From Pyrodictiaceae archaeon (lineage in GTDB: Archaea > Thermoproteota > Thermoprotei_A > Sulfolobales > WANQ01): DNA of 64,000 bases. Shown in pieces: positions 1 to 6,922 of the stretch (positions within the stretch are counted from its first letter, which is position 1; every line of letters starts with the position of its first letter). A program made the position numbers and the translations under genes. The stretch covers positions 59,187 to 123,186 of the forward strand of contig WANQ01000043.1 of the NCBI GenBank assembly GCA_015521735.1. The letters run 5' to 3'. The notes under the pieces are model-generated. The model saw nothing but the letters and a program-made list of their open reading frames with translations. It did not search any database and was not told where the DNA came from.

Positions 1-1270
1 TTCCAGTCTTTATCAATCCTCTCTTAACAGCCTCTAGTATACCCTTTACTTCATAAGGTCCTACAGCTTTAACATACCCATATGTTTTAGGCATTATTTC
101 TCCATCAGGTTTACTAGGTCTTAGGTCTTTTAGATCCATCTTTTTCAGCATTACTTGTAATTCTCTTGTAGTTATAACGTGTTCTCCATGTAGTTTTCTT
201 GCAACACATTGCGTTATTAGTACACTATGATATCCTAGTCTTGGTGTTGGTGGACGTACAAGGTATTTCCTTAGTTCAGGGTAGAACTGGTTTACATACT
301 TGTATTCTGCTTCGCTTACTGGCACTATGTTTAACTCGTGTGTGAGCTGTATGTCTGCTAAAGGCGACCATATTATTATCCTAGTAAATCCTAGTTCTCT
401 AAGCGCGGTAATAACCTTACCAGGATCTACTTCTTCTGCTTCTGCTAGTGCTGCTAATGCTTCTGGCTCTATGTATGCTATTGGATTATGTTTTGAGAGG
501 AGCCCTTGAACGTTTTCTATATCATTTCTGTAAACTAGGGCTCCTACAGGACAGTAAGCTGTACATAAACCACATAGTATGCATGTAGTGTTCTCAAATG
601 GCTCATAGAATGGTGTTGCAACTGCTATGTCTATTCCACGGTTAACGAATCCTAAAGCATTTACACCTAGACTACTACATACTCCAACGCATCTACCACA
701 AATAATACATTTATCTGCATGGAGCCTTAGTATCTTACCCCTAATATCACGTAAGTATTCACGACAGAACTCAAATCTCCTCTCACCTTGCTTAAACCAT
801 GATCCTCCCACTATCTTGGCTATGAGTTCTACTAACTCCCACTTGTTAATTGGGCATCCTCTTAGCCAGTAATCAACTCTAACATATCTTGAAATAGGTT
901 CTCCTTCAATGATTCCTTCATGCTTCTCTTCGCTTCCATAGACTTTCTTTACTCCATTAATGCTTCTTCCTTTCATAAGCCCTGGTATTCCTCCTAGGAG
1001 ACTACATGTACCTAGGGCTACTAGTATCTTCGCCTTTCTCCTAATCTCCTTTAGCTTCTCAGCATCCTCTATGGAAGCTACTGCTCCTTCAACGAATACT
1101 ATATCGTATTCCTCTCTTTCACTAGTATAGCCTAAAAGAGGTTCATAGGCTATTTCTATACCGTATTTCTCCATTAACTCGATTAGCTTCTCACCTAGAT
1201 TAACTATTTCATGCCTACATCCCTCGCATCCTGCTAGAGAGTATATTCCTACAATAATTTTGTCTGCCAT
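1..1270 (-). CDS. Chimeric hydrogenase subunit (partial at left edge): NiFe small-subunit N-terminal domain + 2x[4Fe-4S] ferredoxin module + degenerate FeFe-hydrogenase-like domain
   Basis: Hand-translated from ATG at 1270 (minus), open to position 1: MADKIIVGIYSLAGCEGCRHEIV...VALGTCSLLGG...WLRGCPINKWE...DKCIICGRCVGVCSSLGVNALGFVNRGIDIAVATPFYEPFENTTCILCGLCTAYCPVGAL...VDPGKVITALRELGF...YKYVNQFYPELRKYL...VLITQCVARKLHGEHVITTRELQVMLKK. Not in the supplied ORF track because it runs off the edge. Confidence 0.85.
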   Translation of the reverse strand, partial: MADKIIVGIYSLAGCEGCRHEIVNLGEKLIELMEKYGIEIAYEPLLGYTSEREEYDIVFVEGAVASIEDAEKLKEIRRKAKILVALGTCSLLGGIPGLMKGRSINGVKKVYGSEEKHEGIIEGEPISRYVRVDYWLRGCPINKWELVELIAKIVGGSWFKQGERRFEFCREYLRDIRGKILRLHADKCIICGRCVGVCSSLGVNALGFVNRGIDIAVATPFYEPFENTTCILCGLCTAYCPVGALVYRNDIENVQGLLSKHNPIAYIEPEALAALAEAEEVDPGKVITALRELGFTRIIIWSPLADIQLTHELNIVPVSEAEYKYVNQFYPELRKYLVRPPTPRLGYHSVLITQCVARKLHGEHVITTRELQVMLKKMDLKDLRPSKPDGEIMPKTYGYVKAVGPYEVKGILEAVKRGLIKTG

Positions 1271-1286
1271 GGATTTATACCTCAAC

Positions 1287-2558
1287 TTATTGTTTAACTA
1301 CAACATGGACAGCACATGGAAGACATGGATCGTATGCTCTAACAAGCATTGACAAATACTTTTTAGCTTCAACTACGTCTAATTCTCCTTCAACTATCTT
1401 CTTACCCAAGGTCATAGCTGAGTGTTCTATGTGGAGGGCATTCATTGCTGTAGGCGTTATTATATTAGCGTATACTACTCTACCCTCACTATCAACCCTA
1501 TAATGATGTATGAGTAGTCCTCTAGGTGCTTCAAGTACTCCTACTCCTTCACCACTACGTATGGTGTATTCTGTTCTTAGCCTAAGATCCCTATCTTTCA
1601 GTTCATCTAGCTTCTCCTTAACATCCATTATAGTTGCTAGTATTTCTAGTGCCTTAGCCTTAATGTTGGCGTAGGGATTGTTTAGTTCCTTTACAATAGA
1701 TGACACGTAGTCCTCTAATCCTACTAGTCTCTCACCATACTCCAACACTCTTGCACGTGAGCCAACATAGAATACTCTACCATTATATCTGTAAACCTTG
1801 GAGTTTGAGTAGTCTACTACCTCCTCTGAGATATACTTAGGGTAGTCTACGGCCCTGAACTTCTCCCCAGTAGACGATAGAATATAGTCGCCTATGGAGA
1901 GATAGCCTATAGGTGATTCAGATACAAGGTATACTGGTGAAGGATCTACTAGTTCTGGTAGTTCAAGCCTAGTTACATGGTCTACTACTTCTCTTGCAAG
2001 CTTCTCTGCCTCACCTAGTATCCTCACAGCTTTCTCTACTTTATCCTTTGAAGGCTTCTTTGTAAATCCTCCAATTCTATAAGTATTCGGGTTTACTATC
2101 CTACCTGCTAATAGCTCAACTACTTGTAAGCATAAGTTGTTTAGCTTAAACCCTACTTTAATTAAGTCTGGATTCCTTGATAGAAGCTCTGATAAAGTCC
2201 TAGCATTATAGTAGTCTGGTAGTGCTAGGAAGAATAAGTGTACTACATTGTTTTGTGCTACCTGTATCTTGTTCATGGATTCTTTTAGCAGTATTATATC
2301 ATCTGGTAGCTCTACTCCCAGCGCGTTTTCTATTGCTGTAATCGATGCTAAGAAATGTGCTATACTACATGCTCCACATATTCTTGACGCTATTATTGGT
2401 GCTTCATCTACTTTTCTACCCTCTATTACAGCTTCTATAAGCCTCATATCATGTACTACACGGAATTTTGCGTCAACACTACCATTCCTTAAGCTTAGCC
2501 TTAACTCTAGGTGTCCGAATACTTTATCTATTCTCTCGCTTAGCTCGAGATAGCTCAC
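1287..2558 (-). CDS. NiFe hydrogenase large (catalytic) subunit, group 3-like
   Basis: L1 motif RICGACSIAH and L2 motif DPCLPCAVH present; only VVVKQ follows L2. Confidence 0.9.
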   Translation of the reverse strand: MSYLELSERIDKVFGHLELRLSLRNGSVDAKFRVVHDMRLIEAVIEGRKVDEAPIIASRICGACSIAHFLASITAIENALGVELPDDIILLKESMNKIQVAQNNVVHLFFLALPDYYNARTLSELLSRNPDLIKVGFKLNNLCLQVVELLAGRIVNPNTYRIGGFTKKPSKDKVEKAVRILGEAEKLAREVVDHVTRLELPELVDPSPVYLVSESPIGYLSIGDYILSSTGEKFRAVDYPKYISEEVVDYSNSKVYRYNGRVFYVGSRARVLEYGERLVGLEDYVSSIVKELNNPYANIKAKALEILATIMDVKEKLDELKDRDLRLRTEYTIRSGEGVGVLEAPRGLLIHHYRVDSEGRVVYANIITPTAMNALHIEHSAMTLGKKIVEGELDVVEAKKYLSMLVRAYDPCLPCAVHVVVKQ

Positions 2559-3226
2559 TTCTTTTCACCTCCATTATAGGTTTCTAGTAATATGTTGTAG
2601 ATCTTGTCTAGGCTTGGGTGATTATTCCAGAATAACTTCATCTTAGAGAATACTTCTTCTAATGGTATTTTATGCTCCTTGTAGAGCCTAGCCGCCTCAA
2701 CTAGTACGTCTCTACGTGTTATAGGGCCACGACATCCTATACATATAGTTCCTTCTCTAGTACAGGGGCTACCACAACCAGCTATAGTTATTGGGCCTAG
2801 GCATGGTTCTCCTCTTACTAGTAAACACTCGTTTCCGTGGAGAGGGCATTCAGCACATACTGGTATGCCTTCTACACCATATTCTCTTGCTAAGTCTAGT
2901 AGTTGGCAGAATCCGCCTTTCCTTGGACAAGACTGGCATTTAATTTTATGGGATGCTAGTATTAGTTCTAGTATTACTCTACGGTTACGTCTAACTCTCT
3001 CTGTATTAGTGTAGACTCTTAGCCCCTCTGATACAGGGTAGGCGCAAGCTGGTACTAGTCTACCGTTACCTAGTTCTACAATACATATTCTACATGATGC
3101 TTCACGGTATATTCCCTTGAAGAAGCATAGTGTTGGAACACTATATCCAGCCTTAATTACAGCGTCAATTATATATGATCCCTCCCCTACTTCTACTTCT
3201 TTATCATTAACGTAGACCTTAACCAT
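2555..3226 (-). CDS. HoxU/NuoG-N-like iron-sulfur subunit with C-terminal NiFe small-subunit-like distal cluster segment
   Basis: Plant-type 2Fe-2S motif (ASCRICIVELGNGRLVPAC), NuoG-type H..C..C.....C region, then NECLLVRGEPCLGPITIAGCGSPCTREGTICIGCRGP resembling the C-terminus of group 3 NiFe small subunits. Confidence 0.85.
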   Translation of the reverse strand: MVKVYVNDKEVEVGEGSYIIDAVIKAGYSVPTLCFFKGIYREASCRICIVELGNGRLVPACAYPVSEGLRVYTNTERVRRNRRVILELILASHKIKCQSCPRKGGFCQLLDLAREYGVEGIPVCAECPLHGNECLLVRGEPCLGPITIAGCGSPCTREGTICIGCRGPITRRDVLVEAARLYKEHKIPLEEVFSKMKLFWNNHPSLDKIYNILLETYNGGEKK

Positions 3227-3235
3227 ACCGTATTA

Positions 3236-5191
3236 TCACCTCTTCTCAACTGCTCCTACAGGACAAACAATATAGCATTGACCACAGTGAATACACTTTG
3301 ACTTATCAATTACATGGGGCTTACCTAGTTCACCTGAAATAGCTTTAGATGGACAATTTCTTGCACAAGTACCACATCCAGTACATTTGTCAGGGTTAAT
3401 CCAGTACTCTACTAGCTTAGTACATACTTTTGCAGGACAACGCTTACTACGAACATGTGCTAGGTACTCGTCCTTGAAGTATCGTAGCGTTGACAATACT
3501 GGGTTAGGGGCTGTTCCACCGAGAGCACATAAGCTTGAACTCCTAATTACATTTCCTAGCTCTTCTAGTACTTCTAGATCCTCTTCACTTCCTTCACCAT
3601 TAGTTATCTTTTCCAGTATATCGTAGAGTATCTTCATCCCTATGCGGCATGGGAAACACTTGCCACAGGATTCTGCTACAGTAAAGCTTGTAAAGAACTT
3701 AGCTACATCAACCATACAGCTATGGTCATCTATTACTACTATTCCACCAGAACCCATTATTGCTCCAGCTTTCTGCAATGTCTCGTAGTCTATTGGTGTT
3801 GATAGTAGGCTTGCAGGTACACATCCACCACTAGGCCCACCTATCTGTACTGCTTTGATTTTCCTACCTTCTGGTGGTCCTCCAGCAATCTCTACTACTA
3901 GCTTCTCTATTGTTGTCCCTACTGGTACTTCGTAGGCACCAGTACGTTTAACTGAACCCGTTACACAGAACATCTTAGTACCCTTAGTCTTCTCTGTACC
4001 ATACTTGGCGAACTTCTCCCATCCCTCAGCCATTATCGTTGCTACATGAGCTAGTGTCTCAACATTATTGATTATGGTAGGTTTACCCCATAGTCCACGT
4101 GTTGCTGGATAAGGTGGTCTTTGCCTAGGCCTAGTCCTCCCCTCTATTGCTGCGATTAACGCTGTTTCTTCTCCACATACAAAGGCTCCTGCACTAAGGA
4201 TTACTTCTACGTCAAAGCTAAAGCCTCTTCCAAGAATATTGTCTCCTAGTAGACCATACTTTCTTGCCTGCTCAACAGCTTTTGATAAGCGCTCAGCCAT
4301 TAATGGTTTTTCTGCTCTAACGAATATGAAACCCTTACTCGCACCTATGGCGTAGGCTGCTATTATCATTCCCTCAAGTACTCGGTGGGGATCTGATTCT
4401 GCTAGCAATCTATTCATGAATGCTCCAGGGTCTCCTTCATCAGCATTCATTATAATGTACTTGACGTCTCCTGGTTGCTCACGAGCAATCTTCCATTTCA
4501 GCCACGTTGGGAATCCTGCTCCTCCACGTCCACGTAGACCCGACTTCCTTATCTCCTCTATTACTTCCTCAGGCCTCATGTTTAGTGCTCGGTCTAGTCC
4601 ACGGTATCCTCCAAGAGCTATGTACTCCTCTATTGACTCTGGATCAACTATTCCACAGTTCCTTGAAACCCATCTTACCTGATTCCTCCATGGCTCAAGC
4701 TCGTCTAGTAGTGGCACCTTGTCTTCTCCTTTCGCATTACCAGTACGATTCCTTAATGCAAAAGCACTTGATACATCTCCTTCAAGGTATTCTTTTATAA
4801 TTCTTGGCACATCACTTGGCTTAACATTAGCGTAAATCGCTGAAGGCATACCCTTCTTAGACAGCTCTATCCATGGATCTATGTAGCACATCCCCATACA
4901 TCCAGTTCTATGTATATCAGCTAGTATTCCACGTGACTTAACCTCTTTAACAACAGCTTCGTAGACTTCGTGTGCTCCAGCAGCAATAGTACAGCTAGCA
5001 AGTGGTACATTTATCTTAAACCCATGTCTACCATATCTTATCTCTTTAAGTCTTCTACTCCTCCTGACACGGCATTCAACGTCTTCGTGACATAACGGTC
5101 CACTTAGTCTACACCTAATATAGTGGCGACAAGGATACTCAGGGCTATGCCAACATCTATTACAACACTTATCCATTAATGTCCAGGTCAA
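3236..5191 (-). CDS. HydB/HoxF/NuoF-like diaphorase subunit (FMN, NAD(P)H) with C-terminal 2x[4Fe-4S] ferredoxin domain
   Basis: GLRGRGGAGFPTWLKW, NADEGDPGAFMNR, CGKCFPCRIG, and C-terminal CTGCGTCARNCPSKAI...CIHCGQCYIVCPVGAV; Cys-rich N-terminus. Confidence 0.9.
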   Translation of the reverse strand: MTWTLMDKCCNRCWHSPEYPCRHYIRCRLSGPLCHEDVECRVRRSRRLKEIRYGRHGFKINVPLASCTIAAGAHEVYEAVVKEVKSRGILADIHRTGCMGMCYIDPWIELSKKGMPSAIYANVKPSDVPRIIKEYLEGDVSSAFALRNRTGNAKGEDKVPLLDELEPWRNQVRWVSRNCGIVDPESIEEYIALGGYRGLDRALNMRPEEVIEEIRKSGLRGRGGAGFPTWLKWKIAREQPGDVKYIIMNADEGDPGAFMNRLLAESDPHRVLEGMIIAAYAIGASKGFIFVRAEKPLMAERLSKAVEQARKYGLLGDNILGRGFSFDVEVILSAGAFVCGEETALIAAIEGRTRPRQRPPYPATRGLWGKPTIINNVETLAHVATIMAEGWEKFAKYGTEKTKGTKMFCVTGSVKRTGAYEVPVGTTIEKLVVEIAGGPPEGRKIKAVQIGGPSGGCVPASLLSTPIDYETLQKAGAIMGSGGIVVIDDHSCMVDVAKFFTSFTVAESCGKCFPCRIGMKILYDILEKITNGEGSEEDLEVLEELGNVIRSSSLCALGGTAPNPVLSTLRYFKDEYLAHVRSKRCPAKVCTKLVEYWINPDKCTGCGTCARNCPSKAISGELGKPHVIDKSKCIHCGQCYIVCPVGAVEKR

Positions 5192-5718
5192 CTACCACCA
5201 CCTTTAATCTTCTTCAATGCTAGTGAACGATATTTTGCAACAATACGTCTAGCATCACGTATGGTTACATGCCCGTGAAGGTACCGCTCCTTACCATCCC
5301 TACTAATAACCATGACTACCGGTGCTAGACTACATGCACCAAAACATCTCGCCTTCTCTACACTAACCGTTCCATCCTTTGCAGTATTCTCGTATTTCCC
5401 TAAACCCAAAAACCTCTTCATAGCCTCATAATTGTCTAGATTACCTTTAAGATGACAAGCCGTGCCCATGCAGACTAGTATTATATAATACCCAGGTGGC
5501 TCAAGCTTAAACTGGTGATAGAATGTTGCAACATTAAGTACCTCACTTAACGGAATACCTGTTAACTTTGCAAGCTCCTCCAATGCTCTTCTAGGCAAAT
5601 AGCCATAACGACTTTGTATCTCCTGTAACATACGCATAAGATACCTTCTCTCACCACGATACCTAGCAACTATACTAGATACCACGTTGACTACTGTTTG
5701 ATTAACCAACGCATTCAC
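5188..5718 (-). CDS. NuoE/HoxE/HydC-like 2Fe-2S subunit
   Basis: LQEIQSRYGYLPRRALEELAKLTGIPLSEVLNVATFYHQF; CMGTACHLKG and CFGACSLAPVVMV cysteine motifs. Confidence 0.9.
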   Translation of the reverse strand: MNALVNQTVVNVVSSIVARYRGERRYLMRMLQEIQSRYGYLPRRALEELAKLTGIPLSEVLNVATFYHQFKLEPPGYYIILVCMGTACHLKGNLDNYEAMKRFLGLGKYENTAKDGTVSVEKARCFGACSLAPVVMVISRDGKERYLHGHVTIRDARRIVAKYRSLALKKIKGGGS

Positions 5719-5884: not shown

Positions 5885-6922
5885 TTACTCTAGAAGTGGG
5901 AAGAATCGGCAACGACATGCTTTATCTCTTATACACCTACTAACAGTTATACGGGCTATGCTCATAGAACTTCTTATTACTGGTAGTATTTCCTCAGCTA
6001 TCATAGTATTATGTTTTCCTAGTTCTCCTAAAAGCTCGTTAATATACTCCATTACGATTTCCTCTTTACCTAATACCGTTAACGCCTTATTTATATCGTT
6101 ACTTATATACGATGATATGGATGCTTCATATAGTTCTTGCAAGTAGCCTATGATTTTGTCTATTTCTTCTCCTAGTTCAACTCTATCCCTGCTAGGAGTA
6201 CTAGCTATCATTCTAGCTAGTCTTGTAATAGAATCTGTTATCTCCTTGAGATCCCTTAAGACTATTATGGAATCTATTATATCCTGTATATTCTTACCAC
6301 GTACTACGTTTTTCTTAGAGGCTCTTAGGCCTAGATAGTATATTCCTTCAGCTTCCTCTTCTAAGTCTTTTAGCTCATCTAGTATTATTGTATTATTACT
6401 ACGTACTAGTTTACGTGTTATACTGAATACTTGGTTAAGTGTAGTGGAGAACTTTTCTATAATGGGTTCAACGTTAACTGGAGCTTCCATGAACGTTAAC
6501 TTATAGGAGTAGCCTTTAAGTCCGGGTAATACCACCATTCCGGGAAGCTTTTTCCTTAGTATCCTTAATGATTCTCCTAGTACCTCTTGCTTGCCCTTCA
6601 CGTGTATCTCGGATACACCTTCAATGTATGCTCCAATGACTTCTTCTACTAATTGCTTAGTACTTCTACGAGTAGCATCCAATGCTATTCTTAGACCTAA
6701 AGGTTCTTCTGACACCTTCTCTCTTGGAGGGCGAACTATTATTGTATCTTCATGTTTTTCTAGTTCTACTAGGTCTCCTACCTCTATACCTAGTTCACGA
6801 CACCATTTCTTAGGTATGGTTATAGCATATGATGCTTCTCCTACTCTAAGTACTTTCCTTCGCTCCTTCTCTAAAGCCAATACACATAACACCCTACAAT
6901 TACAAATTGTTGTAGTAGGCAA
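5885..6922 (-). CDS. AbrB-type N-terminal domain + PhoU-like protein
   Basis: EASYAITIPKKWCRELGIEVGDLVEL swapped-hairpin AbrB signature followed by PhoU-like helices; Cys-rich C-terminus CIRDKACRCRFF. Confidence 0.75.
   Translation of the reverse strand: MPTTTICNCRVLCVLALEKERRKVLRVGEASYAITIPKKWCRELGIEVGDLVELEKHEDTIIVRPPREKVSEEPLGLRIALDATRRSTKQLVEEVIGAYIEGVSEIHVKGKQEVLGESLRILRKKLPGMVVLPGLKGYSYKLTFMEAPVNVEPIIEKFSTTLNQVFSITRKLVRSNNTIILDELKDLEEEAEGIYYLGLRASKKNVVRGKNIQDIIDSIIVLRDLKEITDSITRLARMIASTPSRDRVELGEEIDKIIGYLQELYEASISSYISNDINKALTVLGKEEIVMEYINELLGELGKHNTMIAEEILPVIRSSMSIARITVSRCIRDKACRCRFFPLLE

Follow-up and report, generated by a model that had tools for sequence, protein, structure and literature searches.

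The window, by which we mean the whole 64,000-nucleotide stretch analyzed (G000:C43:59187-123186), opens on an operon of five genes, all on the reverse strand, in the order hydC - hydB - GN - large subunit - fusion. The last of these, the fusion gene (1-1270, -), encodes a [NiFe] hydrogenase small-subunit N-domain joined to the 2x[4Fe-4S] module and the H-domain of a group A [FeFe] hydrogenase (HydA). Upstream of it lie the genes for a group-3b-like [NiFe] large subunit (1287-2558, -), for GN, which combines a HydA/NuoG N-domain with a [NiFe] small-subunit C-domain (2555-3226, -), for a HydB/BfuB-type subunit (3236-5191, -) and for a HydC/NuoE-type [2Fe-2S] subunit with four invariant Cys (5188-5718, -). 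The gene that adjoins hydC encodes an AbrB/MazE-type DNA-binding domain protein (5885-6922, -), a candidate regulator with a homologue near the hybrid operon at 13 of 28 related loci.

The reading frame of the fusion gene is open throughout, with no internal stop in the translation, and continues for 137 bases past the window edge (G000:C43:59050-59186) to its end at C43:59050. The full protein has 468 amino acids, 423 of them encoded in the window, and extending the contig, a check proposed in the preliminary description, brought to light neither a frameshift nor a join. Residues are numbered here from the ATG at position 1270 (P0001 numbers plus 2). In the N-domain (residues 1-157; 800-1270, -), which corresponds to residues 3-157 of the P. 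furiosus SHI delta subunit, Pfam Oxidored_q6 matched residues 13-150 (7e-24). The proximal-cluster motifs of a NiFe small subunit reported earlier (GCEGC, GTC, GCP) were all found, and the proximal [4Fe-4S] ligands are C15, C18, C89 and C139, conserved in 29/29 sequences. The remainder, beginning near residue 160, aligns with group A [FeFe] HydA from HydA residue 118 (about 120) on. The FeFe-type 2x[4Fe-4S] ferredoxin module that had been described after the N-domain (491-739, -), with eight invariant Cys, was matched by the Pfam Fer4 dicluster, and the segment described as colinear with the FeFe catalytic domain, the H-domain (1-486, -), by Fe_hyd_lg_C (3.2e-8 and 34.0 bits on the full protein, cut-off 22.1); the window-truncated part scored 21.7 bits, just below the cut-off. 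The nearest full-length orthologue, at 63% identity, was modeled as a monomer with AlphaFold2; the mean pLDDT was 83, with the H-domain mostly at about 90 or higher. In Foldseek searches this model matched T. kivui HydA (E 1.3e-19) and CpI first, and its N-domain matched the P. furiosus SHI delta subunit (E 3.4e-15).

Relatives were found with an alignment query, which retrieved 28 archaeal loci besides our own (29 fusion sequences in all), while a contig scan with the single window protein as query gave no match. The fusion ORF sits at the window edge, yet that it arose from an assembly join or a frameshift is hardly conceivable and has already been refuted, given the single open frame without a stop and the identical junction in the 28 other named assemblies and in 22 genomes of the class. 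The ligand cysteines are kept in 29/29 sequences across independent assemblies, which puts the fusion architecture beyond chance, and the ORF is confirmed as a real gene. Of 231 genomes of the class, 22 carry the fusion, as do 21 of 400 sampled genomes of the phylum (E <= 1e-40), though a few of these 21 copies are partial or broken. One copy, at G244:C13:55633-56966, is interrupted by many stops and is probably a decaying gene or the result of a poor assembly. The order HydC-HydB-GN-large subunit-fusion is kept in about 20 named loci, which belong to Desulfurococcales, Sulfolobales, Ignisphaera, Thermofilales, Wolframiiraptor and Archaeoglobales, and the fusion was also detected in one Bathyarchaeota MAG. 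At the Bathyarchaeota SKYB62 locus (L081), GN adjoins the fusion gene with no large subunit between them; only one good large subunit turned up in this genome, at another place, and in the tree it falls on the side of the 3b sequences. Invariant ligands comprise the 12 cluster Cys of the fusion together with C355, C430 and C434, as well as those of the large subunit and of HydC. The preliminary description mentioned that NiFe/FeFe hybrids have been described in archaea; the fusion, of which it knew no other example, is not peculiar to this contig and is widespread in thermophilic archaea. A single "[FeFe]-hydrogenase group A" has been reported for all Korarchaeia (PMC10667645), and this name could stand for the hybrid described here.

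What is left of the H-cluster site was examined by alignment with 25 bacterial HydA sequences. The L1 motif of HydA, TSC[C/S]PGWVKYI, reads VPVSEAEYKYV in the fusion, in agreement with the earlier observation that the first ligand Cys of TSCCPxW is lost. Across the 29 fusion proteins the first L1 Cys position is occupied by V, M, A, Y, R, L, K or F (C in one), the second is Ser319 in every case, Glu322 is invariant, and the L1 ligand Cys is gone from all 29. Equally invariant (29/29) are the L2 Cys (C355, in TQC), whose survival from the MPCxxKK motif had also been noted, and both L3 Cys (C430 and C434, in CPxGCxxGGGQP). S319, E322 and C355 are encoded inside the window; the two L3 Cys, left by the preliminary description as positions to check beyond the edge, are both there: ICPNGCIMGGGQP. 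Compared with the ligand set of a catalytic [FeFe] site (L1 TSC[C/S]PxW, L2 MPCxxK, L3 CxxGCxxGGGQP), the fusion therefore lacks L1 and retains the Cys of L2 and L3. The spacers between the motifs are also shorter than in HydA (medians of 35 instead of 55 and 75 instead of 144 residues), and the region around the diiron site has lost about 90 residues. Two candidates for a replacement ligand were considered. A C-terminal CxxC (C448/C451, P0001 numbering) was rejected, as it is present in only 5/29 proteins. The case for Ser319 as a fusion-specific replacement was weakened by the retrieved bacterial loci (L100-L151), in which 41 of 51 HydA L1 motifs read TSCSPGW, with Ser at the usual ligand-Cys place of TSCCP; Ser319 may therefore simply be inherited, and the newly lost position is the lone Cys that precedes it.

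The maturation genes point in the same direction. Of the hydEFG and hypA-F maturases that the preliminary description had proposed to look for, HydG, HydF and HypD were covered: HydG is absent from the window's own genome and from all 17 fusion genomes searched, HydF above the cut-off was found in 0/9 fusion genomes, and HypD is present in the window's own genome. Sub-threshold matches to TIGR03918 (HydF) were discarded; they look like generic GTPases, since the same matches occur in all control genomes. At one related locus (L091), HypF and HypD adjoin the hybrid operon. The fusion ORF is also the sole Fe_hyd_lg_C match in its genome. Collectively, the loss of the L1 Cys, the shortened spacers, the absence of HydG and HydF, the lack of a second Fe_hyd_lg_C protein and the presence of HypD indicate that the fusion H-domain most likely has no diiron site. 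A dual-site hydrogenase, with a working H-cluster in the H-domain beside the NiFe site, would fit the invariant L2 and L3 Cys, but it is very improbable and already largely refuted by the L1 loss in 29/29, the deleted diiron-pocket segments and the missing HydG and HydF.

With three of its four H-cluster Cys conserved in every sequence, the H-domain is not simply degenerate and probably still binds a cluster. In the NiFe-HydA of Acetomicrobium mobile, an Fe-S cluster (A5) takes the place of the H-cluster (PMC8880783), and by likeness to A5 a [4Fe-4S] cluster held by three Cys is plausible for the fusion. We consider it quite unlikely that this site is a working one and not a relic, that is, a [4Fe-4S] cluster in which one iron is bound by Ser/Glu or left open and which would act as a sensor, valve or binding site. 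C355, C430, C434, S319 and E322 are invariant across lineages that are only 35-40% identical, which exceeds the apparent need of a mere scaffold; however, no second substrate is suggested by the neighborhood genes, and the A5 cluster of A. mobile HydA is the end of a branch, off the path to FMN (PMC8880783).

Two genes upstream of the fusion, GN carries the complementary arrangement. Its residues 1-121 are a HydA/NuoG N-domain with a [2Fe-2S] and a His-ligated [4Fe-4S] site (E 4.7e-24), and residues 121-213 are a small-subunit C-domain with 8 Cys, predicted to hold two [4Fe-4S] clusters. The C-part matches residues 161-260 of SHI delta (HydD; E 8.7e-20), GN has an NCBIfam HydD match at 164-258, and BLASTP against the neighboring 3b delta subunit gave 1e-15. 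All 16 ligands of GN (15 Cys and one His) are invariant in 25/25 sequences. The fusion consists of HydD up to residue 157 followed by HydA from 118, and GN of HydA up to about 121 followed by HydD from 161, so that both are cut at the same interdomain linkers, within about 4 residues. With these complementary breakpoints both parents are fully represented, and the two mirror-image genes appear to have arisen by reciprocal exchange of domains. Most simply, a hydA gene and a [NiFe] small-subunit gene would have traded halves in a single reciprocal event at the interdomain linkers; provided that each domain stayed where it was in space, this would have changed just the connecting linkers. The preliminary description had pictured a NiFe enzyme that absorbed an FeFe-type electron-transfer or structural module with a dead H-cluster site. 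This view is supported by the loss of the L1 Cys in 29/29, the diiron-pocket deletions, the missing HydG and HydF, the presence of HypD and the intact [NiFe] ligands, with the amendment that the absorption is two-way, the upstream gene holding the complementary halves.

The large subunit contains the nickel ligand motifs RICGAC and DPCLPCAVH. Its RxCGxC and DPCxxC motifs, together with the proximal cluster ligands and Hyp maturation, are those of group 3 [NiFe] hydrogenases, and among solved structures it is nearest to SHI alpha (213 bits to P. furiosus SHI versus 123 to A. mobile HydL). In a tree, 25 hybrid large subunits formed one group apart from four sampled 3b large subunits (support 100/99). 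The operon does not conform to a group 3b sulfhydrogenase, as its large subunit lies outside the few 3b sequences sampled and its partners are HydBC and not SHI beta/gamma. At L005:13051-17032 (+), 18 bases from the fusion gene and tail to tail with it, lies an operon of the ordinary group 3b sulfhydrogenase type (beta, gamma, delta, alpha), such that the ends of two distinct [NiFe] hydrogenase operons face each other. Further along this contig, outside the window, at L005:2-3354 (-), two NuoL/Mrp-type-looking membrane subunits and a HycB-like ferredoxin were recognized by eye in the translation.

The window HydB comprises a Trx-like N-part, an FMN/NAD(P)H domain, the B1 site, a B2 site with His and Cys ligands and two C-terminal [4Fe-4S] sites. 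It matches the NiFe-HydB of A. mobile with 695 bits, over the whole length there as for other bifurcating HydB proteins. The B1-B4 ligands are invariant in all copies that reach that far and the C1 ligands of HydC are conserved, while the N-terminal [2Fe-2S] (B5-type) site of the window HydB has three Cys only. At two related loci (L087 and L088), HydB (about 935-2758) is without the two C-terminal [4Fe-4S] clusters; these hybrids may have lost ferredoxin coupling. NiFe-HydABCSL of A. mobile couples H2, NAD and ferredoxin, with ferredoxin reduced by H2 only in the presence of NAD (PMC8880783), and by homology with this enzyme the complex probably bifurcates or confurcates. Given the three-Cys B5-type site and the L087 and L088 proteins, not every member need do so. 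The same features, along with the finding that related HoxFU-type enzymes do not bifurcate (PMC9304861), would suit a complex of the same composition that is a non-bifurcating, NAD(P)-coupled hydrogenase resembling HoxEFUYH, its extra HydB clusters being vestigial or serving ferredoxin only. We regard this as unlikely, since the features that non-bifurcating homologues lack (PMC9304861), namely the His+Cys B2 site and the pair of C-terminal [4Fe-4S] clusters, are present in the window HydB and nearly all relatives.

For a bifurcating complex, H2 would be cleaved by the NiFe center in the large subunit and the electrons would pass to the proximal cluster in the fusion N-domain, on to the two small-subunit C-domain clusters on GN, into the HydA-type cluster network divided between GN and the fusion, and from there to the FMN of HydB. 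The FMN could then reduce NAD(P)+ and, via the C-terminal HydB clusters, ferredoxin, their joint reduction constituting bifurcation; alternatively, the complex might run in reverse and produce H2. No H-cluster would be made, and the probable three-Cys cluster of the H-domain would be a retained scaffold or a side branch, like A5 in A. mobile NiFe-HydABCSL. Overall, we think it likely that the five genes encode a soluble, bifurcating or confurcating [NiFe] hydrogenase of the HydABC type, with an inactive H-domain as scaffold and with chimeras that arose by reciprocal exchange. A more far-reaching version seems possible, though doubtful: a crossing-over-like exchange between hydA and the small-subunit gene would have left a cluster chain that alternates between the two chimeric chains, and the three-Cys/Ser/Glu site would be a working metal site other than an H-cluster.

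Greening and colleagues have reportedly found complexes in which [FeFe] and [NiFe] hydrogenases are fused, in ten orders of archaea. Archaeal NiFe/FeFe hybrid hydrogenases are a kind already reported (Greening et al. 2024, Cell 187:3357), and our operon resembles them in having fused FeFe and NiFe parts and in occurring in several archaeal orders. As far as can be told from architecture and archaeal hosts, the operon fits this kind as a further member. With NiFe-HydABCSL of A. mobile (PDB 7t2r, PMC8880783), a type 3 Bfu enzyme (PMC9304861), it shares homologues of HydB and HydC, NiFe large and small subunits and a HydA-derived domain without an H-cluster. The A. mobile HydL is farther from our large subunit, however, which is nearer to group 3b, and in place of the single-chain HydA and one-cluster HydS of type 3 Bfu we found HydA and a three-cluster small subunit with swapped halves. 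The large subunit and the small-subunit N- and C-domains are like those of group 3b SHI (P. furiosus, PDB 9nez), but here the small subunit is split across two genes and joined to HydA parts, and HydBC stand where SHI has its beta and gamma subunits. From group A HydA (T. maritima, T. kivui, CpI) the fusion has kept the 2x[4Fe-4S] module, the H-domain fold, the L3 motif and the L2 Cys; it differs in the missing L1 ligand Cys, the deletion of about 90 residues, the placement of the N-terminal clusters in a separate gene and the lack of HydG and HydF in the genomes. No description of the reciprocal exchange or of the invariant three-Cys remnant was found in the literature searched, a comparison outside which Greening et al. 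(2024) falls, and the anatomy of the exchange may be new.

These findings mean that thermophilic archaea have physically united two hydrogenase superfamilies that are unrelated to each other. In the hybrid, the roles would be divided, with the chemistry carried out at the [NiFe] site and the [FeFe] protein left to serve as wiring only. The reciprocal exchange would make this evolutionary step legible residue by residue, and with the invariant remnant of the H-cluster site the role of an H-domain without an H-cluster becomes testable. They also call for caution with archaeal "[FeFe] hydrogenase group A" annotations, which can be hybrids without FeFe activity.
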